Positions 26,408 to 60,319 of a stretch of 64,000 bases of DNA are shown here, in pieces. The stretch comes from Flavobacterium terrigena (GTDB lineage Bacteria; Bacteroidota; Bacteroidia; Flavobacteriales; Flavobacteriaceae), in assembly GCF_900108955.1 (NCBI RefSeq), contig NZ_FNYA01000003.1:124001-188000 (forward strand), read 5' to 3'. How positions within the stretch are numbered: the first letter of the stretch is position 1; each line of letters begins with the position of its first letter. The notes under the pieces are model-generated. The model had not been told where the DNA came from, did not search any database, and saw nothing but the letters and a program-made list of their open reading frames with translations. The position numbers and the translations under genes were made by a program.

Positions 26408-26480
26408 AGTTTTTATGTAAAAAGTAAAAAGTATTCCGTCGCAGTTTTCTATTTTCTCTTAAAAGGAGAACGTGATTAAT

Positions 26481-26556
26481 AACCCCGATTGCAGTGGCAT
26501 CCTGTTATAAATTGCTACTTCAAAAGCAATTTGTAACAGATATAACGGAAAGCGGG
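26481..26556. repeat. Flavobacterial interspersed repeat or structured RNA element
   Basis: The phrase CCCCGATTGCAGTGGCATCC ... ATATAACGGAAAGCGGG resembles an intergenic element I associate from memory with many Flavobacterium genomes. Its centre is a 15-base stem, 26502-26516 with 26525-26539 (one G-U), and an eight-base loop; outer CCCG and CGGG can pair. It is not in any open frame. Confidence 0.55.
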
Positions 26557-26577
26557 TGAGGTTTTGTTTTGAAATGT

Positions 26578-29351: not shown

Positions 29352-29891
29352 TTATTTTGTTCTTGAAATCGCGGTATTATATTTTTGTATTTTTTCTTTT
29401 AAAATCATTTTAGCTCTTGCTAAGTTTGATTTAGAAGTGCCATCTGTTATTTCTAACATTTCTGCAATTTCTTTATGTGAATAGCCGTCAACAACATATA
29501 AGTTAAAAACTAAGCGGTAACGATCTGGCAGTTCTTGAATAATTTTTAATAGAAATTCCATGGTTACAGATTCGTCATCTATTTCAACTTCTTCTACATT
29601 CGGAATTTTATCTGAAACCAATTCTAAAAAAGCGCCTTGTTTTCTATATTGTTGTAAAACATAATTTACGACTAATCTTTTGGCCCAACCTTCAAAAGAA
29701 CCATTTCCATTAAACTGTTTTAGTTTTTCAAAAATGATTAAAAAACTTTCTTGTAAATTATCTTGCGCTTCTTCATGATTTCTCGAATACTTTAAACTAA
29801 CCGCAAACAATTTAGGAGCTAAAAGCTTATACAATTGTTCTTGAGCCTGAGTATTATTTTTCTTACATTCATGTAGAAGGCTTTCAATCAT
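29352..29891 (-). CDS. ECF-type RNA polymerase sigma factor
   Basis: The 179-residue protein has sigma region 2 (NHEEAQDNLQESFLIIFEKL, then GSFEGWAKRLVVN) and region 4 (LPDRYRLVFNLYVVDGYSHK ... EIAEMLEITDGTSKSNLARA), with no regions 1.1 or 3, as in ECF sigma-70 factors. It lies nine bases after the lipoprotein stop and 91 bases before the membrane-anchored barrel gene. The barrel protein may be its regulator, as sigma/anti-sigma pairs are usually adjacent. The promoters it reads are unknown. Confidence 0.92.
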   Translation of the reverse strand: MIESLLHECKKNNTQAQEQLYKLLAPKLFAVSLKYSRNHEEAQDNLQESFLIIFEKLKQFNGNGSFEGWAKRLVVNYVLQQYRKQGAFLELVSDKIPNVEEVEIDDESVTMEFLLKIIQELPDRYRLVFNLYVVDGYSHKEIAEMLEITDGTSKSNLARAKMILKEKIQKYNTAISRTK

Positions 29892-29900
29892 TATTTATAT

Positions 29901-30308
29901 TTATTGGACATCAACAGATATTTCTTCAAAAATATCATCACCATTTGTATCTTTTCCTTTCCAAAATTTGAATAAATAGGTTCCCGTTTCAGTTGGTTCG
30001 AATTGTAGTACTTTTTCTAACCCCTGATCTGTTAAATTTGTACAGTTATCTTGTTCGATTACAACACTTTGAATTGCAACTGTTCTGGTTAATCCATCTT
30101 TTTCATAATAAAATCCATCAAAACCATGACAACTTGTAGGTCTAAAAAATTTTATGATAATATCATTATTTGTATTAGCATAAAATTCTGTTGGCATTAC
30201 TACAGATTCAACAGGTAGTAACTCTAAATGCATCTTCGTTTCTTCGGTTTCTGGTTCGCATGAAATCACCATCAAGAAAACCCCAATAAGTGCTAGTATT
30301 TTTTTCAT
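29901..30308 (-). CDS. Predicted lipoprotein of unknown function
   Basis: The 135-residue protein has a lipoprotein signal (MKKILALIGVFLMVISC, lipobox Cys at residue 17) followed by an acidic segment. The mature part is mostly beta strands and carries two further cysteines (RPTSCHGF and EQDNCTN) that could form a disulfide, with a strand pattern (FEPTETGTYLFKFWKG) like Ig/PKD-type domains. It is the first gene of a minus-strand unit with the ECF sigma factor. I do not recognise the family. Confidence 0.75.
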   Translation of the reverse strand: MKKILALIGVFLMVISCEPETEETKMHLELLPVESVVMPTEFYANTNNDIIIKFFRPTSCHGFDGFYYEKDGLTRTVAIQSVVIEQDNCTNLTDQGLEKVLQFEPTETGTYLFKFWKGKDTNGDDIFEEISVDVQ

Positions 30309-38607: not shown

Positions 38608-41600
38608 ATGAAAAAAACATTATTGTCATTACTATTGACTATGTTTTCCGTTTTAATGAGTCAGGGACAAACCGACCAACTATGGAAAAGTGTTAATCAA
38701 GAAACCTTAAAAATTCAAGAAAAACTTGGCAGAGGTTCTACCCCAAAAGCATTTAAGCTTTTTAACCTAAATTTTTCTGCTTTCAAAACTGTTTTACAAA
38801 ATGCCTCTTTAAGGGATGCTCAAACAGGATCTGGCCTAATTGTTTCCTTCCCAAATCCAGAAGGAAAATTACTAAAATACACAGTATACGAATCTCCAGT
38901 AATGGAAGCTGGCTTAGCCGAAAAATATCCAGACATCAAATCGTATGTTGGACAAGGAATTGATGATCGTACAGCTACAATTCATTTTAGTGTAACATCA
39001 TTTGGTCTTCACACGATGACACTTTCAGGTTACGCTGGAACAACATATATTGATACTTATACCAAAGATTTACAAAATTATATAGTTTACAAACGTTCTG
39101 ACTTAAGCAGCTCTAGAGCATTTAGTTGTTTGGTTCAAGATGATCATGAAAAAACAGCTTCAGTAACACCGTCAACAAGTGTCTTAAGAACAACTGATGG
39201 AACCAAAAGAACTTATAGATTGGCTATGGCTTGTACTATAGAATATGCTGCATATCATGTTAATGCTGCTGGTTTGAGTGGTGGAACTACAGCTCAGAAA
39301 AAAGCAGCAGTTTTAGCCGCAATGAACGTTACTATGACTCGGATTAATGGTATTTATGAAAGAGATTTAGCCGTAAGAATGAATCTTGTTGCTAATAATG
39401 ATGCGATTATTTTTATCACATCGGATTCTTTTTCAAACACCGACTCAAATGCTTTAATCGACGAAAGTCAATCTGTAATTGATGCAACAATCGGAAGTGC
39501 TAATTACGACATCGGACATACAGTTAGTACTGGTGGTGGTGGTTTAGCACAATTATACTCTCCATGTTCTTCTAGTAAAGCAAGAGGAATAACAGGACAA
39601 GGTTCTCCAGTAGGTGATCCTTTTGATGTGGATTATGTGGCACATGAAATGGGACATCAATTTGGTGGTAATCATACACAAAACAACGCTTGTAACCGTA
39701 GTTCAGCTGCTTCAATGGAACCTGGTAGTGGAAGTACAATCATGGGATATGCTGGTATCTGTGCTCCAAACGTTCAGAATAACTCTGATGCACATTTCCA
39801 TTCTAAAAGTTTAGATGAAATGTCAGCATTTATAACTGGATCTGGTAATAGTTGTGCTGTAAAAACAGCTAGTGGAAATACAGCACCTACATCAAATGCT
39901 GGAGCCGACTTTACAATTCCTAAAGGAACGCCTTTCGTTTTAAAAGGTGCTGGAACGGATGCTAATGGAGATGCATTAACATATTGCTGGGAACAAATCA
40001 ACCCTGAAACTTCTACACAACCTCCGGTAGCAACTTCAACTTCAGGACCTAATTTCAGATCAAATCCTCCTTCAACTTCTCCTGATAGATACATGCCAAA
40101 TTTAGCAACAGTTATCGCTGGAAATACTGCAAATACTTGGGAAGTAGTTCCAAATGTTGCTAGAACAATGGATTTTTCTTTAACCGTAAGAGATAACAGA
40201 GCAGGAGCTGGTCAACACGCTACTGATAATGTAAAAATAACAGTTAATGGAACTGCTGGTCCTTTCACGGTAAGTTCACCAAACACTGCTGTTTCTTATG
40301 TAGCAGGAACTTCTCAAACAGTAACTTGGAATGTTGCAGGAACTACTGCAAATGGCGTAAATGCTGCCAATGTTGATATCTTATTATCTACTGATGGAGG
40401 AAATACATATCCGGTTACTTTATTAGCTGCAACCCCAAATGACGGAACACAAGCTGTTACAATTCCTAATACTCCTGGTACTCAAAACAGAATCATGGTA
40501 AGAGGTAGCGGACATATTTTCTACGATATTTCAAATGCTAATTTTACAATCACGGCTGGATCTTCTGATACAGTTGCACCATCTGCTCCAACAAGTTTAA
40601 CAGCTTCAGGAACTACACAAACTACAACAAATTTATCTTGGACAGCTTCTACTGATAATGTTGCAGTAACTGGATACGATGTGTACAGAGGAACTACTTT
40701 ATTAGGGACAGTTACAACTACAACTTATAACGTTACAGGATTAACAGCATCAACAGCTTATTCATTCTCTGTGAAAGCTAAAGATGCAGCTGGAAATATT
40801 TCAGCATCAAGTAATGTAGTTAACGTAACAACATTAGCACCAGCTTCAGATACAACTGCTCCTAGTGCTCCAACAAGTTTAACAGCTTCAGGAACTACAC
40901 AAACTACAACAAATTTATCTTGGACTGCTTCAACTGATAATGTTGCAGTAACTGGATACGATGTATATCAAGGAACTACTTTGTTAGGAACTGTTGCTAC
41001 TACAACTTATAACGTAGCAGGATTAACAGCTTCTACTGCTTATTCATTCTCTGTGAAAGCAAAAGATGCAGCTGGAAATATTTCAGCTTCAAGCAATGTG
41101 GTCAATGTAACAACATTAGCTGTGGTTTCTGTTTACTGTACCTCACAAGGAAATAGCGTTTCTGATGAATTAATTGGAAGAGTGCAAATTGGAACAATCA
41201 ACAACGCTTCAACTGGCGGAACGGGTTATACTGATTTCACATCAATTTCAACAAACCTTACGAAAGGTGTTTCAACTACAATTACAATTACACCAACATG
41301 GACAGGCTCAGTTTATGCAGAAGGTTATGCGGTTTGGATTGATTACAACAACGATAAAGATTTTGCTGATGCAGGAGAATTAGTTTGGAGTAATGCAGCC
41401 GTTTCAACTACTCCAGTTTCAGGATCTTTCACAGTTCCAACAACTGCAACAACTGGTGCAACTAGAATGAGAGTGTCGATGAGATATAACGCAATTCCAG
41501 CATCATGTGGAAACTTTGATTACGGTCAAGTGGAAGATTACACCGTTAATCTAATCAATGCAGCTGCAGATACTACTGCACCAAGCGCTCCAACAAGTTT

Positions 41601-42555
41601 AACAGCTTCAGGAACAACACAAACTACAACGAATTTATCTTGGACGGCTTCAACAGATAATGTTGGGGTAACTGGATACGATGTATATCAAGGCGCAACA
41701 TTAAAAGCTACAGTTACAGGAACTACGTATGCAGTTACAGGTTTAACAGCGGCTACAACTTATACTTTTTCTGTAAAAGCGAAAGATGCTGCTGGAAATA
41801 TTTCTGCATCAAGCAATGTGGTAAATGTGACAACATTATCAAATACAGTAACATATTGCGCTTCCCAAGGAAATAATGTTTCAGATGAGTTTATCGATTA
41901 TGTAGCAATTGGTGGAATCGCAAATACAACTGGAGCTAACGCAGGTTATGGTAATTTTACAAACTTGGTAGGAAATATTCCTTATGGTTCAAATACGATT
42001 ACTTACAGTACTGGTTTCACTGGATCTGCTTATACAGAATTTTGGTCGGTGTGGATTGACTACAACAAAAATGGAACTTTCGAAACTACAGAAAAAGTAG
42101 CTTCTGGATCGTCTTCAAGTAGTGCTAATTTATCAAGTACTTTTACGGTACCAACATCGGCTTTAGCTGGAACAACTAGAATGAGGGTTTCGATGAAATA
42201 TAACGCTGCACCTACTGCTTGTGAAACTTTTACTTATGGAGAAGTAGAAGATTATACAGTAAATATTGGAGTTTCAGCTAGACCTCAATCAGAAGTTGGA
42301 GAGCAAATAGGAAGCGAATCGTCTATTTATGATTTAACTTTATATCCGAATCCTACAGAAAGTGAATTAAATATTGCAACGGCAGATGGACGTGAAGTGT
42401 CTTTCAGAATTGTAAATCTGATGGGTCAGGAAGTAAGAAAAGGGAAATTTTCGACTAAAGGAAATATTAATGTGAGTGACCTTAACAATGGAATTTATGT
42501 TTTTGAAATCAATGATGGTCAAAAAACAGTTTCAAAGAAATTTGTAAAGAAATAA
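38608..42555 (+). CDS. Secreted M12B-like metalloprotease with FN3, GEVED and T9SS tail
   Basis: The 1315-residue precursor has a signal peptide (about 1-20), a propeptide, and a metzincin domain with H346-EMGH-350-xxG-xx-H356 and a likely Met-turn (STIMGYAG), as in reprolysin-like M12B enzymes. Then follow PKD-like beta domains (about 430-650), FN3 (about 657-745 and 750-840), GEVED (841-985, ends GQVEDYTVN), FN3 (989-1080), GEVED (1082-1220) and a type IX sorting tail (1240-1315, YPNPTESELNI...KKFVKK). It should be exported by T9SS and act at the surface or in the medium. It is first of three neighbouring protease genes and has its own terminator. Confidence 0.9.
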   Translation: MKKTLLSLLLTMFSVLMSQGQTDQLWKSVNQETLKIQEKLGRGSTPKAFKLFNLNFSAFKTVLQNASLRDAQTGSGLIVSFPNPEGKLLKYTVYESPVMEAGLAEKYPDIKSYVGQGIDDRTATIHFSVTSFGLHTMTLSGYAGTTYIDTYTKDLQNYIVYKRSDLSSSRAFSCLVQDDHEKTASVTPSTSVLRTTDGTKRTYRLAMACTIEYAAYHVNAAGLSGGTTAQKKAAVLAAMNVTMTRINGIYERDLAVRMNLVANNDAIIFITSDSFSNTDSNALIDESQSVIDATIGSANYDIGHTVSTGGGGLAQLYSPCSSSKARGITGQGSPVGDPFDVDYVAHEMGHQFGGNHTQNNACNRSSAASMEPGSGSTIMGYAGICAPNVQNNSDAHFHSKSLDEMSAFITGSGNSCAVKTASGNTAPTSNAGADFTIPKGTPFVLKGAGTDANGDALTYCWEQINPETSTQPPVATSTSGPNFRSNPPSTSPDRYMPNLATVIAGNTANTWEVVPNVARTMDFSLTVRDNRAGAGQHATDNVKITVNGTAGPFTVSSPNTAVSYVAGTSQTVTWNVAGTTANGVNAANVDILLSTDGGNTYPVTLLAATPNDGTQAVTIPNTPGTQNRIMVRGSGHIFYDISNANFTITAGSSDTVAPSAPTSLTASGTTQTTTNLSWTASTDNVAVTGYDVYRGTTLLGTVTTTTYNVTGLTASTAYSFSVKAKDAAGNISASSNVVNVTTLAPASDTTAPSAPTSLTASGTTQTTTNLSWTASTDNVAVTGYDVYQGTTLLGTVATTTYNVAGLTASTAYSFSVKAKDAAGNISASSNVVNVTTLAVVSVYCTSQGNSVSDELIGRVQIGTINNASTGGTGYTDFTSISTNLTKGVSTTITITPTWTGSVYAEGYAVWIDYNNDKDFADAGELVWSNAAVSTTPVSGSFTVPTTATTGATRMRVSMRYNAIPASCGNFDYGQVEDYTVNLINAAADTTAPSAPTSLTASGTTQTTTNLSWTASTDNVGVTGYDVYQGATLKATVTGTTYAVTGLTAATTYTFSVKAKDAAGNISASSNVVNVTTLSNTVTYCASQGNNVSDEFIDYVAIGGIANTTGANAGYGNFTNLVGNIPYGSNTITYSTGFTGSAYTEFWSVWIDYNKNGTFETTEKVASGSSSSSANLSSTFTVPTSALAGTTRMRVSMKYNAAPTACETFTYGEVEDYTVNIGVSARPQSEVGEQIGSESSIYDLTLYPNPTESELNIATADGREVSFRIVNLMGQEVRKGKFSTKGNINVSDLNNGIYVFEINDGQKTVSKKFVKK

Positions 42556-42575
42556 TATAAATTTTTTAAATAATT

Positions 42576-42607
42576 AAAAAGGCGGGATATTAATTCCGCC
42601 TTTTTTA
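42576..42607 (+). terminator. Terminator of the M12B-like protease gene
   Basis: AAAAAGGCGGaatTA-type stem, GGCGGgatattaattCCGCC, followed by six T. Its sequence differs from those of the two M4 genes. Confidence 0.8.
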
Positions 42608-42705
42608 TTCTCTCATTTGTTATAAAAATAACATAATAATTAAATTATAATATAAATTTTAACAATTTTTACGGGAAATCCTTACCTGTTTTTTTGTCTT
42701 ACACC

Positions 42706-42713
42706 TAAATTTG
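42706..42713 (+). promoter_or_regulatory. Possible -7 box (TAAATTTG) for the first M4 protease gene
   Basis: TAAATTTG would give a leader of about 115 bases before the ATG at 42837. The leader contains TTAACCAACTAAAA (42813-42826), complementary to the predicted small RNA at 58721-58826. Confidence 0.4.
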
Positions 42714-42836
42714 AATAACCTAGAAAAAATTTCAATTATAAAATACTTGTTACGAGTGAATTATAAAATAATTTCAAATTTAAAAAATCAATCTGACCAA
42801 TTGATTTAATTATTAACCAACTAAAACAAATCTATT

Positions 42837-45800
42837 ATGAAAAAACCTTTAAACAGTATTGTTTCGGTATTTGCATTGTCATTATTTGCGCTGTCTGTAT
42901 CAGCTCAAGAAACAGACAAAAATGTAAAACAGAAAAACCATAGCGAGAATGGTTTGCCTAGTTTAATCACATTTAGTGAAAAATCGACTTATAAAAGTTC
43001 CGATTTTCAAAAAATCTTCAAAGACCAACTCGGTCTAAAACAAAACCAAAATTTTTCTAAAATTAAAACAGAATCCGATGGAGATGGTTTTACACATGAA
43101 AAATTCCAATTATTCCATCAAGGTTTAAAAGTTGAATTTGCCACGTATACCATGCATTCTAAAAATGGCAAATTGGCTTCAATGAGCGGTGAATTTTATA
43201 ACATTGGAGAAATAAATATAACACCAGCTATTTCTGCTGAAGTTGCACTTAATAAAGCAACTCGTCAAATTGGAGCTTCAAAATATCTGTGGGAAAATCA
43301 GGCAGAAGCCGATTTGATTGGATATCAAAAACCACAAGGTGAATTACTATTATTACCATTAATGCCGGAAGAAGGCAAATCAAAAACTTCAAATGATATA
43401 AGACTAGTTTATAAATTTGACATCTATGCCACTAGCCCTGCAAGTAGAGGAGATGTGTATGTAGACGCTCAAACGGGAGAAGTTTTATTTTATAACGCAA
43501 CAATTAAACACTTAGGAGAACATGCGCATGGCACAAAAACTACGAAACAAGCTTTTACTAAAAATATAGAAAAACCTAAATTTTCTGATCTTTTCAATAG
43601 CAATTCTTTACTTGTAGCAGGAACTGCTGCAACACGTTATAGTGGATCAAGATCTATTGAAACAACTCTAACAAGTGGAAGTCATAAACTTAAAGACGCT
43701 ACAAGAGGATTAGGAGTTGATACCTACAACATGCAAATGGGTATTAATTATAATAATGCGGTCGATTTTTCAGATGTTGATAATAATTGGACGGCTGCTG
43801 AATTTAACAACACCGCTAAAGACAATGCAGCTTTAGACGCACATTGGGCTGCCGAAAAAACATACGATTTTTTTAAAACAACCTTCAATAGAAACAGTTA
43901 CGATAATGCTGGAGCAAAAATTAAAAGTTATGTACATTTTGACTTAGTTGAATATGGCTATTCAAATAATGACAACGCCTTTTGGGATGGTTCAAGAATG
44001 ACTTATGGTGACGGAACATCTTTTCAACCGTTAACTTCTGTTGATGTAGCGGCACACGAAATAGGACATGCTATCTGTACTTATTCTGCAAATTTAGCCT
44101 ACCAAAGAGAATCTGGTGCGATGAATGAAGGATTTTCAGATATTTGGGCTGCTTGTGTGGAGTATTATGCGGATCCTACAAAACAAACTTGGGTATTGGC
44201 TGAAGAAATTGGTGGGCCAATTCGTTCTTTCTCTAATCCAAATGCAAAAAGTCAACCAGATACTTATGGAGGAACCTACTGGAAAAATGTAAACTGTGGT
44301 ACTCCAACACAAAGTAATGATTACTGTGGTGTTCACACGAATTCAGGAGTATTGAATCACTGGTTCTATATTCTTTCTGTTGGTAAAACAGGAACAAATG
44401 ATATTGGAAATGCCTTCAACGTAACTGGAATTACAATTGAAAAAGCAGGTAAAATCGCTTATCGTTTAGAAACAGCTTATTTATCCGCTAATTCAACATA
44501 TGCTGATGCCAGAACACATGGTATTCAATCTGCAATTGATTTATACGGAGCGGGTTCTGCTGAAGTTATTGCTACAACAAATGCATGGTATGCAGTAGGT
44601 GTTGGTGCGGCTTACGCAGGTTCAGGTGATACTGTAGCGCCATCTACACCAGCTAGTTTAGCGGCATCTGGAACAACTTCATCTTCAACTAACTTATCAT
44701 GGACAGCTTCAACTGATAATGTTGCGGTTGCGGGTTATAATGTATATAGTGGAGTTACTTTATTAGGAACAGCATCTGGAACTACTTACACTGCTTCAGG
44801 ATTAACTGCTTCTACAACGTATTCATTTACAGTGAAAGCAAAAGATGCAGCTGGAAATTTATCTGCTTCAAGTAATGCAGTTAGTGTTACGACTTTAGCC
44901 GCTACAGCTTCATATTGTGCTTCTCAAGGTGGTAGTGTTGCCGATGAATTAATTGGTAGAGTTCAAATAGGAACAATCAACAACGCTTCAACTGGTGGAA
45001 CTGGTTATACAGATTTCACATCAATTTCGACTAACCTTACTAAAGGCGCTTCAACTACAATTACAGTAACACCAACTTGGACAGGAAGTACTTATCCAGA
45101 AGGTTATGCTGTGTTTATTGATTATAACAACGATAAAGATTTTGCCGATGCAGGTGAATTAGTTTGGAGTAAAGCAGCCGCTACAACAACTCCAGCTTCT
45201 GGAAGTTTTACTGTTCCAACAACAGCAATTACGGGTTCAACAAGAATGAGAGTTTCGATGAAATACAACGGAATTCCAACAGCTTGTGAAGCTTTTCAAT
45301 ACGGACAAGTTGAAGATTATACGGTTAATTTAACTACAGGGACTGTAGATACAACTGCGCCATCTGCTCCAACAAGTTTAACTGCTTCTGGAACATCTCA
45401 AACAGGAACAAATTTATCTTGGACAGCTTCAACAGATAATGTTGGTGTAACTGGATACGATGTATATCAAGGTGTAACTTTAAAAGCTTCAGTTACTGGA
45501 ACAACTTATGCAGTAGCAGGTTTAACTGCTGCAACAGCTTATACTTTTTCTGTAAAAGCGAAAGACGCAGCCGGAAATATTTCTGCTGCAAGTAATGTAG
45601 TGAATGTAACAACATTATCAAATTCAGTAACTTATTGTGCTTCTACTAGTAGCAATACATCTGATGAAAAAATTGGTAGAGTTCAAGTAGGAACGATTAA
45701 TAATCCTTCAACTGGAACTGCTGGTTATGAAAACTTTACCGCTTTATCTACTAATTTAACGACAGGGACAGCCAATACAATTACAATCACACCTTCATGG

Positions 45801-46331
45801 ACATCAACTGTTTATAGCGAAGGTTATGCCGTTTGGATTGATTACAACAAAAACGGATTGTTTACAGATGCTGGCGAATTAGTATTTTCAAAAGCAACTT
45901 CTACAGCGACTACAGCAACGGGTTCTTTCACAGTTCCAACAACAGTTAGTGTAGGCTCAACAAGAATGAGAGTTTCTATGAAATACAACGGAATTCCAAC
46001 TTCATGTGAAACATTAGCTTACGGACAAGTAGAAGATTATTCTGTGAATATTGTTGCAGGAACTCCAATTTCAGCTATTACAGAAACGAATTCAAATGAA
46101 GTTTTAACAACACTTTCTTTATATCCAAATCCAACTAGAGATGTCTTGAATATTGAAACAAATAGTGATTCGAAATTAAACTATTCAGTTACTAATTATT
46201 TAGGACAAGTTGTAAAAACGGGAAGTATCGAAAATAACGTGTTAAACGTTTCTAGTTTAAATTCTGGAATTTATATTTTAGAAATTAATGATGGACAAAA
46301 ATCGGTTACCAAAAAATTCATTAAAGAATAA
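42837..46331 (+). CDS. Secreted M4 (thermolysin-like) metalloprotease, copy 1
   Basis: The 1164-residue precursor has a signal peptide (to about residue 23, SVSAQ), an FTP/PepSY-type propeptide (about 50-220), and an M4 domain with H407-EIGH-411, third zinc ligand E431 in MNEGFSD, and the [10 protein letters not shown] element near the active site. FN3 (about 601-690), GEVED (692-835), FN3 (839-928), GEVED (931-1075) and a type IX sorting tail (1092-1164, YPNPTRDVLNI...KKFIKE) follow. It is a paralogue of the next gene and shares a near-identical terminator with it. It probably degrades extracellular protein. Confidence 0.93.
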   Translation: MKKPLNSIVSVFALSLFALSVSAQETDKNVKQKNHSENGLPSLITFSEKSTYKSSDFQKIFKDQLGLKQNQNFSKIKTESDGDGFTHEKFQLFHQGLKVEFATYTMHSKNGKLASMSGEFYNIGEINITPAISAEVALNKATRQIGASKYLWENQAEADLIGYQKPQGELLLLPLMPEEGKSKTSNDIRLVYKFDIYATSPASRGDVYVDAQTGEVLFYNATIKHLGEHAHGTKTTKQAFTKNIEKPKFSDLFNSNSLLVAGTAATRYSGSRSIETTLTSGSHKLKDATRGLGVDTYNMQMGINYNNAVDFSDVDNNWTAAEFNNTAKDNAALDAHWAAEKTYDFFKTTFNRNSYDNAGAKIKSYVHFDLVEYGYSNNDNAFWDGSRMTYGDGTSFQPLTSVDVAAHEIGHAICTYSANLAYQRESGAMNEGFSDIWAACVEYYADPTKQTWVLAEEIGGPIRSFSNPNAKSQPDTYGGTYWKNVNCGTPTQSNDYCGVHTNSGVLNHWFYILSVGKTGTNDIGNAFNVTGITIEKAGKIAYRLETAYLSANSTYADARTHGIQSAIDLYGAGSAEVIATTNAWYAVGVGAAYAGSGDTVAPSTPASLAASGTTSSSTNLSWTASTDNVAVAGYNVYSGVTLLGTASGTTYTASGLTASTTYSFTVKAKDAAGNLSASSNAVSVTTLAATASYCASQGGSVADELIGRVQIGTINNASTGGTGYTDFTSISTNLTKGASTTITVTPTWTGSTYPEGYAVFIDYNNDKDFADAGELVWSKAAATTTPASGSFTVPTTAITGSTRMRVSMKYNGIPTACEAFQYGQVEDYTVNLTTGTVDTTAPSAPTSLTASGTSQTGTNLSWTASTDNVGVTGYDVYQGVTLKASVTGTTYAVAGLTAATAYTFSVKAKDAAGNISAASNVVNVTTLSNSVTYCASTSSNTSDEKIGRVQVGTINNPSTGTAGYENFTALSTNLTTGTANTITITPSWTSTVYSEGYAVWIDYNKNGLFTDAGELVFSKATSTATTATGSFTVPTTVSVGSTRMRVSMKYNGIPTSCETLAYGQVEDYSVNIVAGTPISAITETNSNEVLTTLSLYPNPTRDVLNIETNSDSKLNYSVTNYLGQVVKTGSIENNVLNVSSLNSGIYILEINDGQKSVTKKFIKE

Positions 46332-46350
46332 ATTTTTAGTTTAGTTTATT

Positions 46351-46380
46351 AAAACGTCTCGAATTTCGGGGCGTTTTTTT
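46351..46380 (+). terminator. Terminator of M4 copy 1, one of a duplicated pair
   Basis: Stem ACGTCTCGA / TCGGGGCGT with T7. Bases 46333-46381 match 49581-49629 at 48 of 49 positions. Confidence 0.85.
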
Positions 46381-46475
46381 ATGCTTAATGTTAGAGTTGT
46401 AGCGGGTTTATGATTTAGGAAATTTTAAGGTTAACTTAAGGATTATTTAAGTTAATCATCTAAAAAACAATTAAT

Positions 46476-46483
46476 TACATTTG
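46476..46483 (+). promoter_or_regulatory. -7 box (TACATTTG) for the second M4 protease gene
   Basis: TACATTTG lies 46 bases upstream of the ATG at 46529. The leader holds TTAACCAAT (46505-46513), matching the shorter part of the small-RNA pairing site. Confidence 0.5.
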
Positions 46484-46528
46484 TTTTCCCCAACAAACCA
46501 ATTATTAACCAATTTAACCTACTAATTT

Positions 46529-49500
46529 ATGAGAAATCACTACCGTAGCATAACTTCGGCATTTGTATTGTCTTTGTTTGCGTTATCTAGTTTCGCTCAG
46601 GAAACAGATAAAAATGTAAATCAAAAAAGCCATGGTGAAAATGGCCTACCGAATTTAATTACTTTCAAAGAAAACACGGCGTATAAAAGCTCAGATTTTC
46701 AAAAAATTTTCCAAGAACATTTAGGATTAAAACAAAACCAAAGTTTTTCACGATTAAAATCAGAATCGGATAAACTGGGTTTTACACACGAAAAATTTCA
46801 ATTATTCCACCAGGGAATAAAAGTAGAATTCGCTACTTACACGATCCATTCTCAAAATGGTAAGTTGACCTCTATGAGCGGTGAATTTTACAAATTGAAT
46901 AATGTAATTACAACTCCTTCAATTTCGGCAGAAGTAGCTTTTAATAAAGCATTAGCTCAAATTGGCGCAACAAAATACCTTTGGGAAGATAAAGTTAGTG
47001 CTGAAAGTATGGAGTATGTAAAGCCACAAGGCGAACTAGTTTTATTGCCTTCTATGGAACAGCAAGGCGAAAAAAGAACTTCAGACAATGTGCGTTTAGC
47101 TTATAAATTTGACATTTATGCAACAGCACCTATGAGTAGAGGAGATGTTTATGTTGATGCAGTAACTGGAGAAATTTTATTTTACAATGCAACTATCAAA
47201 CATTTAGGAGAACATAGCAACTGTAAAGGAGATACTCATGCAGCTGTACCATTTTCTAAAAAAGAATCCAATGCGGTGGTGGCTGGAACTGCTGCTACTC
47301 GTTATAGTGGATCACAGCCAATTCAAACAACATTAAGTGGTTCATCTTATATTTTGTCGGATGTTACTCGTGGAGGCGGAATTCAAACCTATAACTGTAA
47401 CAGAACAGGTACGCTTGGCACTACAAACTTTACTGATGCTGATAATAACTGGACAGCAGCAGAATATAATAATACGAACAAAGACAATGGAGCTTTAGAT
47501 GCACATTGGGGATCTGAAATGACATATGATTATTGGTCTGTTGTTCACGGAAGAAACAGTTATAATAATGCGGGTGCAAAAATGAAAAGTTATGTACATG
47601 TTGATTTAGTTGCTGCTGGATATTCAAATGATCAGAACAATGCATTTTGGAATGGAAGTGCCATGATTTATGGTGATGGATCTGGAACTGGTGGTTTCGA
47701 TATTTTAACTGCTCTTGATGTTACAGGTCATGAAATTGGTCATGCTGTTTGTAGCAGTACAGCTAATTTAGCTTATCAAAGAGAATCAGGTGCAATGAAT
47801 GAAGGATTCTCTGATATATGGGGAGCTTGTGTGGAATTTCGTGCTGCACCTAATAAAGCAACTTGGTTAATAGGTGAAGATATCGAAAGAAGATCAGGAC
47901 ATGCTTCTTTACGTTCAATGAGTAATCCAAACGTTGAAGGACAACCAGACACTTACGGAGGTACGTATTGGAAAAATGTAAATTGTGGTACACCAACACA
48001 AAGCAATGACTATTGTGGTGTTCATTATAATTCAGGTGTGTTAAACCACTGGTTTTATATTTTAACTACAGGAAAATCAGGAACAAATGATATAGGAAGT
48101 GTTTTTAATGTAACAGGTATTGGAATTGATAAAGCAGCCCAAATTGCTTTCCGTACTGAAAGTGTTTATTTAACTTCAAATTCTACCTATGCAAATGCAA
48201 GAACATATGGAATTCAATCTGCTGTCGATTTATACGGCGCAGGTTCTGCTGAGGTTATTGCTACAACAAATGCATTTTACGCAGTAGGAATTGGAGCTGC
48301 TTATGTTGGTCCAGCTGATACCATTGCCCCGTCAGCTCCAGCTAGTTTAGCGGCTTCAGGAACTACTCAAACAACAACAAATTTATCTTGGACAGCTTCT
48401 ACTGATAATGTAGGTGTTACTGGATATAATGTATACCAAGGAACAACGTTGAAAGCAACTGTTACAACTACAACTTATGCTGTAACTGGATTAACTGCTT
48501 CAACAGCGTATGCTTTCTCAATAAAAGCAAAAGATGCTGCAGGAAATATCTCAGCGGCAAGTAATGTAGTAAATGTAACTACTTTAGCACCAGCTGCTGA
48601 TACTTCAGCTCCAACAACCCCAACAAGTTTAACTGCTTCTGGAACTACACAAACTTCAACAAATTTATCTTGGACAGCTTCAACAGATAATGTTGGTGTA
48701 ACTGGATATGATGTTTACAGAGGATCAACTTTAGTTACAACAGTAACAGGAACTAGCTATACTGCTACAGGTTTAACTGCTGCAACTGCTTATACTTTCT
48801 CTGTAAAAGCTAAAGATGCTGCTGGAAATATCTCTGCATCAAGTAATGTAGTTAATGTTACAACTTCATCTACATCAGTTACGTATTGTAATTCAAGAGG
48901 AAATAGTGTTGCTGACGAATTTATTGATTATGTATCAATAGGTGGAATTTCAAATGCTACTGGAGCAAATGGTGGTTATGGTAATTTCACTAATCTTGTA
49001 GGAAATCTTTCTTATGGTAACAATCCAATTATTGTGAGTGCCGGATTTACAGGTTTAGCTTACACAGAATATTGGGCTATTTGGATCGATTTTAATAAAA
49101 ACGGAATATTTGAAATCTCAGAGAAAGTGGAATCTGGATCTTCTTCAAGTAGTGCCAACTTAACAGGAACAGTAAATGTACCAACGACAGCTTTAGCTGG
49201 AACAACAAGAATGAGAGTTTCAATGAAATACAATGCAGCACCAACTGCTTGTGAAACTTTTACTTACGGAGAAGTGGAAGATTATACTGTAAATATTGGT
49301 GGATCTAGTGTTACTGGAATTGCTACTAATGAATTTACAAATGAATCTAATATTTATGATTTCAACATCTATCCAAATCCAGTAGAGAATGTATTGAAAG
49401 TTTCTTTACAGGATAACAGAAAAGCTTCTTATAAAATCTATAATTTAATGGGTCAAGAAGTGAAAAGCGGAAACGTAAATCAATCAGAAATCTATGTTGC

Positions 49501-49579
49501 TAATTTAAATTCTGGTATTTACATTTTTGAAATGAATGATGGTCAAAAAACCATCACTAAGAAATTCATTAAAAAGTAA
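46529..49579 (+). CDS. Secreted M4 (thermolysin-like) metalloprotease, copy 2
   Basis: The 1016-residue precursor resembles copy 1 from signal peptide through the M4 domain (H401-EIGH-405, E425 in MNEGFSD, then [10 protein letters not shown]). The C-terminal modules differ in order: two FN3 (about 598-688, 690-780), one GEVED (784-915) and a type IX sorting tail (945-1016, [11 protein letters not shown]...KKFIKK). Its GEVED is of the EFIDYV...ANGGYGNF type and closely resembles the last GEVED of the M12B-like protease rather than those of copy 1. It ends in a terminator nearly identical to that of copy 1. Confidence 0.93.
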
Positions 49580-57895: not shown

Positions 57896-58669
57896 TTATT
57901 TTTTAAAATTTATAGGATGTTTCAATCCTTTATATTGGTCGATATCCGCTTTGATAGAACCAACTGCTAAACTTGCTTTTACTCGAATTGGAATTTTGTT
58001 ATTATCGTCTGAAATCCAAACGGTTAAACTTTCCTCTTCTTTGAAAACACGACCTGCTTGAACCAATGGTCTAAACATCATACAGTTAATTTCACCAAAT
58101 TTAGAGTTTATATTTTCTCTGCCTACAAATTTAAGTTTAAATTTCGTAGTTTCATCATCAAAAAACATATCAATTGTGATAGATTCACCAATATTTAGTT
58201 TGTCAATTTTTGGATGATTTCTTAAATAGTAAAATGCCGAAACAATATCTTGTACATTTTCTGGTACATTAAACGTTTTTTCGGTTTTGTTTTTATAATC
58301 TTTTACTAAAACAGTATTGTTGTTTTGATTGAAGTAACCTTGTTGGTTTTTTTTATAACCACCTTCATTTATGTTTCTAATGAAAACATATGGTTTGTTG
58401 GTTTCTTTATTAAAATAGCTTTCGTAGTTGTCTACTACTTTAAACATCATTTTTGTTACACCAGTAGTATAGCCTTTACCTACAACATGGTGCATTTTTC
58501 TGCCATTAAGTGCGGCGTCTTTAACTTCTAAAGTAGCATAGCCCGCATTAATAAGTCCGTAATGTATTCTTAGTTTAACAAATTCTCCTACAGTATAAGA
58601 ATCTGCTTGTTTTGTATCAAATGAATTTGATAAAACAAACACAGTAAAAAGTAAAATTATCTTTTTCAT
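57896..58669 (-). CDS. DUF3108-type periplasmic protein
   Basis: The protein (257 residues from the chosen start) has a signal peptide (MKKIILLFTVFVLSNSF) and a beta-rich body with FVKLRIHYGLINAGYATLEV and WISDDNNKIPIRVKASLAVG, the pattern of DUF3108 proteins found in the periplasm of Gram-negative bacteria. The frame extends nine codons upstream, but those residues (YSSKKTYK) do not fit a signal peptide. It heads the minus-strand run ending at 52624. Function is unknown. Confidence 0.85.
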   Translation of the reverse strand: MKKIILLFTVFVLSNSFDTKQADSYTVGEFVKLRIHYGLINAGYATLEVKDAALNGRKMHHVVGKGYTTGVTKMMFKVVDNYESYFNKETNKPYVFIRNINEGGYKKNQQGYFNQNNNTVLVKDYKNKTEKTFNVPENVQDIVSAFYYLRNHPKIDKLNIGESITIDMFFDDETTKFKLKFVGRENINSKFGEINCMMFRPLVQAGRVFKEEESLTVWISDDNNKIPIRVKASLAVGSIKADIDQYKGLKHPINFKK

Positions 58670-58705
58670 TTTATAAGTTTTCTTAGAAGAATACAATTAT
58701 TGTTC

Positions 58706-58713
58706 CAAAGTTA
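58706..58713 (-). promoter_or_regulatory. -7 box (TAACTTTG) for the DUF3108-headed operon
   Basis: Minus-strand TAACTTTG lies 36 bases before the ATG at 58669, immediately after the end of the predicted small RNA, so the two units are back to back. Confidence 0.5.
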
Positions 58714-58720
58714 CAAAAAA

Positions 58721-58826
58721 CAAAAAACCCAGTCAAATGATATGACTGAGTTTTTATGTTTTAACCAACCAAAAAACTATAAATTATGAAAACTTATATA
58801 CAATATGAGTCTACTACCTCTCAATT
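58721..58826 (-). ncRNA. Predicted small RNA of about 105 nt
   Basis: On the minus strand a TAnnTTTG box (58833-58840) is followed about 100 bases later by a terminator hairpin (58726-58752, AACTCAGTCA with TGACTGGGTT, one mismatch) and a T run, with no protein-coding signal between. The predicted transcript begins near 58826 and contains GTTGGTTAA at 58761-58769, just before the terminator. The same stretch on the plus strand resembles an mRNA leader with a 22-codon frame, which I judged less likely. A known conserved flavobacterial small RNA is possible but was not checked. The remaining spacer (58855-59072) shows nothing else. Confidence 0.6.
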
Positions 58827-58832
58827 GCCCTG

Positions 58833-58840
58833 CAAAGATA
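58833..58840 (-). promoter_or_regulatory. -7 box (TATCTTTG) of the predicted small RNA
   Basis: Minus-strand TATCTTTG, seven bases before the predicted start of the small RNA. No clear -33 TTG at the normal distance. Confidence 0.5.
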
Positions 58841-59072
58841 TGTTAAGGTTTTGAGTTTTATTTAAAGAAAAATCAACTTTAACACTTTTAACAGAATAAT
58901 ATGTAAGAAAAGTGGTTAAAATTTAACAAAACAAAAAAATACCGAACTATTATTGAGTATTTGATAATTTAAATTTTTAACTTATTGGTTTTTAATGGTT
59001 TAAAAATCATGAAATTTGTCTTTTTTTAGACAAATTCTTCCTGAAAATCACTGTGTTAAGAATATTTTATAA

Positions 59073-59103: not shown

Positions 59104-60267
59104 TTATAATGTACCTCTTTTGGCTTGTTCTCTTTCAATTGACTCAAAAAGAGCTTTGAAGTTTCCTGCACCAAAACCTTTAGCACCCATTCTTTGAATA
59201 ACTTCGAAGAAAAGTGTAGGTCTGTCTTCAATTGGTTTAGTGAAAATTTGTAACAAATACCCTTCTTCATCCGCATCAATCATGATACCTAGTTTTTGTA
59301 ATTCGTTAATGTCTTCTTTAAATTTAGACATATGATCTTTCAACCTTTCTGGGATAGCATCATAATATGCCTGTGGAGGCGTACTTAAAAATTCGATTCC
59401 ACGAGAACGCATATCAGCAACAGTTGTAATAATGTCATCAGTCGCAACTGCAATATGTTGTACTCCTTCACCTTCATAGAAATCTAAATATTCTTCAATT
59501 TGAGAACGTTTTTTTCCGTTAGCTGGTTCATTGATTGGGAATTTTATTCTTCCGTTACCGTTACTCATTACTTTCGACATCAATGCAGAATATTCTGTAG
59601 TAATTTGTTTGTCGTCAAAAGAAAGAAAATTCACAAATCCCATTACATCTTCAAACCATTTTACGGCTTCATCCATTCTGTTCCAACCAGTATTTCCAAC
59701 CATATGGTCAATAAATTTTAACCCAACTGGTTCTGGATTGTAATCAGATTTCCATTCACTGTATCCTGGTAAAAAGATTCCGTTATAATTTTTACGTTCC
59801 ACAAAAACAAAAACAGTTTCCCCATATGCACCATAAATACCTGCACGTACTACTTCACCATTATCATCTTTTTCAACAGTTGGTTCAAAATATGGTTTTG
59901 CTCCACGTTTTGTAGTTTCTTCAAAAGATTTGCGAGCGTCTTCTACCCAAAGTGCAATAACTTTAACACCATCACCATGTTTTTTTACATGTTCTCCAAT
60001 AGGTGAATTGCTGTTTAAAGCTGTTGTTAATACCAAACGGATTTTATCTTGTTTTAATACGTAAGATGCTCTGTCTTTTACACCTGTTTCTAATCCTGCA
60101 TAAGCTAATGATTGAAAACCGAAGGCTGTTTTGTAAAAATGTGCCGCTTGTTTCGCATTTCCAACATAAAACTCTACGTAATCTGTTCCTAATAAAGGCA
60201 AGAAATCTTGTGCGCCTTCAAATATTTTTTCTAAGCCGTATTCGACTGATTTTAATTCCTCTGACAT
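59104..60267 (-). CDS. hppD: 4-hydroxyphenylpyruvate dioxygenase
   Basis: The enzyme (387 residues from the chosen ATG) makes homogentisate from 4-hydroxyphenylpyruvate in tyrosine breakdown. It has two VOC domains; iron ligands are H188 (IDHMVG), H271 (VQHIAV) and E355 (FFEVIQRMG). The preceding frame uses a non-ATG start (60291) that adds MITKKYNI; MSEELKS at 60267 is preferred. It lies 52 bases after hmgA on the same strand and both end at one terminator. Confidence 0.95.
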   Translation of the reverse strand: MSEELKSVEYGLEKIFEGAQDFLPLLGTDYVEFYVGNAKQAAHFYKTAFGFQSLAYAGLETGVKDRASYVLKQDKIRLVLTTALNSNSPIGEHVKKHGDGVKVIALWVEDARKSFEETTKRGAKPYFEPTVEKDDNGEVVRAGIYGAYGETVFVFVERKNYNGIFLPGYSEWKSDYNPEPVGLKFIDHMVGNTGWNRMDEAVKWFEDVMGFVNFLSFDDKQITTEYSALMSKVMSNGNGRIKFPINEPANGKKRSQIEEYLDFYEGEGVQHIAVATDDIITTVADMRSRGIEFLSTPPQAYYDAIPERLKDHMSKFKEDINELQKLGIMIDADEEGYLLQIFTKPIEDRPTLFFEVIQRMGAKGFGAGNFKALFESIEREQAKRGTL

Positions 60268-60319
60268 AATGTTATATTTTTTGGTAATCAATTTACCTAA
60301 GTTGTGTTTAATTAATTTT

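Follow-up and report, generated by a model that had tools for sequence, protein, structure and literature searches.

Sequence comparison indicates that the minus strand of the window, the 64,000-nucleotide stretch of the Flavobacterium terrigena genome analyzed here, contains a real small RNA (sRNA) gene with three hairpins and its own predicted promoter and terminator (Table 1). We consider it likely that this segment encodes a trans-acting sRNA of the Rfp18 family. Complements of its seed were found 14–18 nt 5′ of the predicted start codons of metalloproteases carrying type IX sorting domains, both in this genome and in Flavobacterium psychrophilum.

Table 1. Predicted features of the sRNA locus and candidate target boxes in the window
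Feature	Position	Strand	Remarks
Upstream neighbor, 4-hydroxyphenylpyruvate dioxygenase (hppD)	59104–60291	−	
Upstream element GTTAAAGTT	58875–58883	−	Conserved; candidate activator site or upstream promoter element
−7 box TATCTTTG	58833–58840	−	sRNA promoter
Predicted sRNA, ~110 nt	58718–58828	−	5′ end near 58828, 3′ end within the T run 58715–58723
Hairpin 1	58801–58827	−	G-rich loop
Hairpin 2	58778–58798	−	Contains the nearly invariant UUUUCAUAA (58784–58792)
Seed GGUUGGUUAA (core UUGGUUAA)	58761–58770	−	U6 before it; proposed pairing region
Intrinsic terminator hairpin	58723–58755	−	
−7 box TAACTTTG	58706–58713	−	Next gene (DUF3108)
Downstream neighbor, DUF3108 protein	57896–58672	−	
Predicted target box UUAACCAAC	42813–42821	+	8-nt core 16 nt before the start of the M4 gene 42837–46331
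Predicted target box UUAACCAA	46505–46512	+	16 nt before the start of the second M4 gene 46529–49579

Results

The sRNA Gene and Its Conservation

An earlier reading of this DNA from its sequence only had proposed an sRNA with its own promoter and terminator, and this proposal is backed by conservation, covariation and a fixed gene context. The signals that it had named were all located: a TAnnTTTG box, a terminator hairpin followed by a T run, and a separate −7 box of the next gene. The promoter motif of the sRNA is of the sigma-A type. In the F. psychrophilum transcription map, TAnnTTTG sits at −12 to −5 according to the available text of PMC9723704, which places the 5′ end of the predicted sRNA near 58828 and gives a predicted length of ~108–113 nt. 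The −7 box alone proves nothing, because TAnnTTTG occurs 119 times in the window against 117.8 expected. Three terminator-like sites were detected in 1.5 kb (two of them being both strands of the sRNA terminator place), compared with a shuffle mean of 0.3. The folding z-score of the segment was −4.35, and none of 200 shuffles was equally stable. Part of the terminator hairpin is also matched, on both strands at 85%, at another place in the same genome (G000:C10:45995–46040).

The decisive support for the predicted sRNA is its conservation. A 161-bp segment matched 193 of the 199 sampled genomes of the genus, including all 167 of the good ones. A covariance model built from 28 copies, run under strict filters at the cost of weak matches, matched 104 of 299 genomes of the family (96 of 249 good ones; 86 of 236 genera). 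The segment is widespread in both genus and family, and is not confined to close strains. In some family genomes the model matched more than once, at two neighboring or three dispersed places (G622:C122:29492–29609 and 29811–29930; G576:C7:237920–238320; three places in G421:C1). The sequence-only reading had also proposed a search with Rfam models, and membership in a known Rfam family was rejected: Rfam 15 contained no family that reached its gathering threshold in the segment, the best sub-threshold match being RefA9 on the opposite strand, with 22.5 bits against a threshold of 49. Elsewhere in the window, a Flavo-1 RNA (RF01705) was found at 26477–26563 on the plus strand, with 51.6 bits.

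From 5′ to 3′, the aligned copies show GTTAAA, the −7 box, hairpin 1 with its G-rich loop, UUUUCAUAAUUU, UUUUGGUUGGUUA(A), the terminator and the next −7 box. All 30 genus loci have the GTTAAA element, as do 29 of the 30 family-set rows (a set that includes two Flavobacterium rows); it lay 33–35 nt 5′ of the −7 box in 28 of the 30 genus loci, the 28 that were measured; it may be the binding site of an activator. In some genera GTTAAA is doubled (GTTAAAGTACGTTAAA). The TAnnTTTG box of the sRNA was found in all 30 genus loci and in 16 of the 30 family-set rows. Across the copies UUUUGGUUGGUUA(A) is nearly invariant, and UUUUCAUAA, which complements AUGAAAA, a common gene start, varies hardly more than the seed. 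In 42 copies, 16 of 23 pairs were altered on both sides while 91.9% of cells were paired; pairing was as high in none of 500 shuffles and fell to 61–67% when the partners were slid by one column. All five hairpin 1 pairs that were counted had changed on both sides, and the terminator stem differs in sequence between clades with its pairing kept (97.0% of cells). One copy (L010, 1513–1637, minus strand) retains the hairpin 1 stem and has lost the conserved G-rich loop.

In the computed fold the seed sits between hairpins 2 and 3. Its region had a mean unpaired value of 0.64, versus 0.39 for the part 5′ of the seed (42 copies), and UUUUCAUAA had a mean of 0.63 (41 copies). An alternative AGUUUUU/AAAAACU hairpin, spotted by eye, would put the seed in a loop.

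Complements of the Seed in Gene Leaders

On the plus strand of the window, 38608–49579 holds a row of three genes (M12B-like, M4 and M4) for HExxH metallopeptidases that carry type IX sorting domains. Predicted target boxes precede both M4 genes, 42837–46331 and 46529–49579, each of which encodes a type IX sorting domain; no box was found for the remaining HExxH gene (38608–42555, M12B). Within the window, TTAACCAA occurs in 2 of 50 leaders, namely in two of the three belonging to HExxH genes and in none of the 47 others.

We then pooled the window with two F. psychrophilum stretches, giving 279 leaders in which gene starts were the first ATGs of long frames and not annotated starts. In this set TTAACCAA was the commonest of its 420 permutations, with 7 matches against a mean of 0.59. 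Five of the seven belong to HExxH proteins at gaps of 14–18, and the remaining two have gaps of 0 and 35. The box was present for 5 of 8 HExxH proteins versus 2 of 271 others (Fisher p = 8.5 × 10⁻⁸), in a test that was not blind because the F. psychrophilum stretches had been picked owing to the published report and the sRNA. All five boxed HExxH proteins carry a type IX sorting domain. By duplex energy, the leader of the M4 gene 42837–46331 ranked first of the 50 window leaders. Duplex energy alone is weak evidence, because the best leader duplex of a reversed seed (−15.2) came close to that of the seed itself (−16.3).

In the F. terrigena genome, four of the six non-sRNA matches of TTAACCAA followed by ATGAAA are gene leaders; these belong to the first M4 gene of the window, an M43 peptidase, an outer-membrane beta-barrel protein and a DUF1574-like protein, the last being an assignment that falls under its Pfam cut-off. 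No full 10-nt complement of the seed was found in gene leaders of this genome, the sRNA's own antisense apart.

Across the genus, raw counts gave no support for the 8-mer and were only slightly raised for the 9-mer. The 9-mer TAACCAACC with ATGAAA 16–30 nt further on occurred 86 times, in 51 of 101 genomes, compared with 68 for the backwards pattern and 82, in 50 of 101 genomes, for the composition-matched control CCAACCAAT. For the 8-mer with ATGAAA, the raw count in 12 genomes was hardly raised (134 versus 125 for the backwards control). Seed and control sites are alike in number, and only their location in leaders differs: gene leaders account for 51 of the 85 classed seed sites, versus 8 of the 83 control sites (Fisher p = 2.5 × 10⁻¹²). 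In this classification, identical contexts were counted once and sites with two ATGAAA twice, which turned the 86 and 82 listed sites into 85 and 83. A leader required a frame of at least 80 codons from ATG, an in-frame stop at most 150 nt upstream and no other 150-codon frame over the box; without the rule on overlapping 150-codon frames the numbers were 52 and 9. One of the control leaders (L184) holds a seed box too. Orthologues inflate the figure of 51, and counting by protein-similarity clusters gave 26 for the seed versus 8 for the control. In no case among the 51 leader boxes did the TAA terminate a 50-codon frame lying upstream.

Pfam was applied to 20 boxed proteins, of which the genus supplied 17 and the family set 3. 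Eight contained a SusC-type TonB plug together with CarboxypepD_reg, and Peptidase_M4, DUF885, malate dehydrogenase, endonuclease I, amidase, sulfatase, peptidase M28 and prolyl oligopeptidase were represented by one protein each. No Pfam family was found in the other four (L117, L124, L218 and L322), the first three of which form one porin-like cluster by reading. Judging by these leader sequences, further targets in other species are likely to include SusC-type TonB receptors, outer-membrane beta-barrels and other proteins of the envelope.

The sRNA copies fall into two seed types, AGUUGGUUA in one clade versus GGUUGGUUA. The boxes in the AGUUGGUUA clade did not clearly change with the seed: the ratio of C to T in leaders was 4:3, versus 9:4 elsewhere, in a comparison for which 39 contexts were classed, 20 were picked for leader-like spacers and ~16 other non-sRNA matches were left out.

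This result bears on another explanation, in which the TTAACCAA box is a DNA- or ribosome-level leader signal of genes for secreted proteins that matches the RNA by coincidence, the RNA itself acting otherwise, for example by binding a protein. The lack of a clear change in the boxes (4:3 versus 9:4) and raw counts near those of the controls would be compatible with such a signal, whereas the permutation control and the location in leaders relative to the matched control favor the seed. Conservation of UUUUCAU and of the G-rich loop roughly equals that of the seed; the box is nevertheless an exact complement of the most conserved stretch of the RNA. Shine-Dalgarno sequences are absent in these bacteria (available text of PMC9723704), which would leave room for a signal of this kind, but the distribution of boxes agrees with the published mutant, in which Fpp1 and THC0290_0300 were affected but Fpp2 was not (see below). 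We therefore regard a coincidental leader signal as unlikely and favor recognition of the box by the seed.

Relationship to Rfp18 of F. psychrophilum

Gene context and sequence complementarity suggest that the sRNA is very probably a homologue of Rfp18. Comparison with the small RNAs of F. psychrophilum had been proposed in the sequence-only reading, and it led to this identification through the context of the gene and the complements at the reported Rfp18 targets. The available text of Guerin et al. 2021 (PMC9723704) describes Rfp18 as conserved in the genus and strongly folded, and predicts pairing both within the 107-bp spacer of fpp2-fpp1 and with further metalloprotease mRNAs, its pairing region being placed in the "third stem-loop." Deletion of rfp18 lowered Fpp1 and THC0290_0300 mRNA in stationary phase and left Fpp2 unaffected. 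In the same text, fpp1 comes second in an operon that has only one start site, dxs is THC0290_0298, and THC0290_0300 is a metalloprotease near dxs.

The sRNA shares these general properties, being conserved through the genus outside F. psychrophilum (193 of 199 genomes) and having a strong secondary structure (z-score −4.35, with covariation). In F. psychrophilum DSM 3660, its copy (G398:C45:38600–38715) has the same gene context. Two metalloprotease genes, for proteins of 1138 and 943 amino acids, lie ~4 kb away on the same contig (42412–48766); Pfam classes them as reprolysin-like and M43, which matches fpp1 (M12B) and fpp2 (M43), listed in the available source text as FP0231/FP0232 and, in FPG3, as FPG3_01260/01265. 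Their spacer measures 106 bp, against 107 bp in the published report, and contains UUAACCAACC, which as TTAACCAACC is the exact complement of GGTTGGTTAA over 10 nt. The pairing reported for this spacer is thus seen here as sequence complementarity, the box before fpp1 complementing GGUUGGUUAA.

The leaders of both M36 proteases beside dxs, on a different contig from the sRNA in DSM 3660, also carry the 8-nt core complement (UUAACCAA / TTAACCAA), 14 nt before the AUG. By gene order the second of these genes would be THC0290_0300, and its box is consistent with the reported pairing. No box was found in the 45-nt Fpp2 leader, in agreement with the unaffected Fpp2 mRNA of the published mutant.

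Other routes to Rfp18 yielded little. A motif search of the 258-kb contig for Rfp18 anchors returned one short match (TGGS) and nothing usable, and F. psychrophilum was not among the matches of the PSY1 pattern in 398 genus genomes. By title or abstract, no paper other than PMC9723704 was found to deal with Rfp18.

The conserved sRNA could instead be another published one, Rfp13 or Rfp15, given that Rfp11, Rfp13, Rfp15 and Rfp18 are all termed structured and conserved in the available text of PMC9723704. The place near FP0231/FP0232 (FPG3_01260/01265) fits several Rfp numbers after Rfp11, which is at 182,564. The spacer pairing and the effects on Fpp1 and THC0290_0300 are reported there for Rfp18, however, and it is at those sites that the complements were found; we consider Rfp13 or Rfp15 quite improbable and retain Rfp18.

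Gene Neighborhood

The usual place of the sRNA is between hppD and the DUF3108 gene, which were found in 53 and 58 of 60 sRNA loci, respectively. The two loci counted without DUF3108 are L004, which is truncated, and L062. This association, and a terminator directly upstream of the DUF3108 gene, would be expected if the segment were a cis-acting leader or attenuator in which the terminator sets read-through into DUF3108. Against such a leader stand L062, where the RNA is retained and no DUF3108 was found in the locus, and the seed complements located in trans. A separate −7 box for the next gene (TAnnTTTGGA after the terminator) is present in only 12 of 30 family-set rows, as attenuation would allow, but in 28 of 30 genus loci. 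On account of L062 and the −7 box in the genus, attenuation of DUF3108 was rejected as the main explanation and appears very unlikely.

A peptide gene in the 22-codon plus-strand frame at 58786–58854 can be dismissed, as its ATG start exists here but is gone in L020 and L030, the frames shift between species, the frame has 6 codons in F. psychrophilum and 4–30 codons in 11 family copies, and the peptide conservation that the sequence-only reading had set against an sRNA was not found.

Discussion

From these complementarities we infer a mode of action in which the seed (core UUGGUUAA) of the sRNA would bind metalloprotease leaders; the U run would lengthen the duplex, and in some targets UUUUCAU would add to it at the start codon. 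The sRNA would thereby raise the expression of its targets, protection of the mRNA leader being the likeliest route. For both leaders on the dxs side, a −7 box (TATATTTG) puts the target box at ~+4 to +11 of the predicted mRNA when the −12 to −5 rule in the available text of PMC9723704 is applied to the leader letters. A duplex at this position would cover the 5′ end of the mRNA, and such shielding fits the loss of mRNA in the published deletion mutant. It would not be valid for all targets, because fpp1 is second in an operon with a single start site. For other targets, repression at the start codon through UUUUCAU is possible.

A broader view, which we put forward tentatively and hold to be somewhat doubtful, is that one nearly invariant seed runs a post-transcriptional regulon throughout the Flavobacteriaceae, comprising type IX-secreted metalloproteases, SusC/TonB receptors, porins and other envelope proteins. 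The seed would recognize a UUAACCAA(CC) box ~14–30 nt before the start in leaders free of Shine-Dalgarno sequences, UUUUCAU would make a second contact on the start codon, and the sRNA would act by covering the mRNA 5′ end.

The Rfp18 family, to which the sRNA very probably belongs, has already been published; new here are the family-wide spread, the seed, the target box with its spacing, and the candidate SusC-type receptor targets. To our knowledge, target recognition by sRNAs in Bacteroidota is poorly understood. With the seed defined, the spacing of the box nearly fixed and candidate targets listed, the proposed mechanism becomes directly testable; the available text on Rfp18 gives targets and a pairing hairpin and no seed sequence or target motif (PMC9723704).

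The sRNA resembles Rfp18 in its conservation through the genus, its strong fold, its complements in the fpp2-fpp1 spacer and in dxs-side protease leaders, and its predicted secreted metalloprotease targets. Two differences stand out: the available text on Rfp18 gives conservation in the genus, whereas the sRNA described here is also found family-wide, and that text places the pairing region in the third stem-loop, whereas here it would be the nearly invariant GGUUGGUUAA. Candidate ncRNAs of Flavobacterium columnare ATCC 49512, a member of the same genus, were obtained by RNA-seq and lack an Rfam match according to the available text of PMC5395568; one of them could be the sRNA of the window. 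Flavo-1 is likewise a flavobacterial RNA but lies elsewhere in the window. FasX, acting on ska, and VR-RNA, acting on colA, are sRNAs that stabilize protease or virulence mRNAs through pairing with the leader. Pairing near the 5′ end of the mRNA, with more target mRNA as the outcome, is the mode that we propose for the present sRNA, which would resemble the FasX-ska and VR-RNA-colA systems in this respect.
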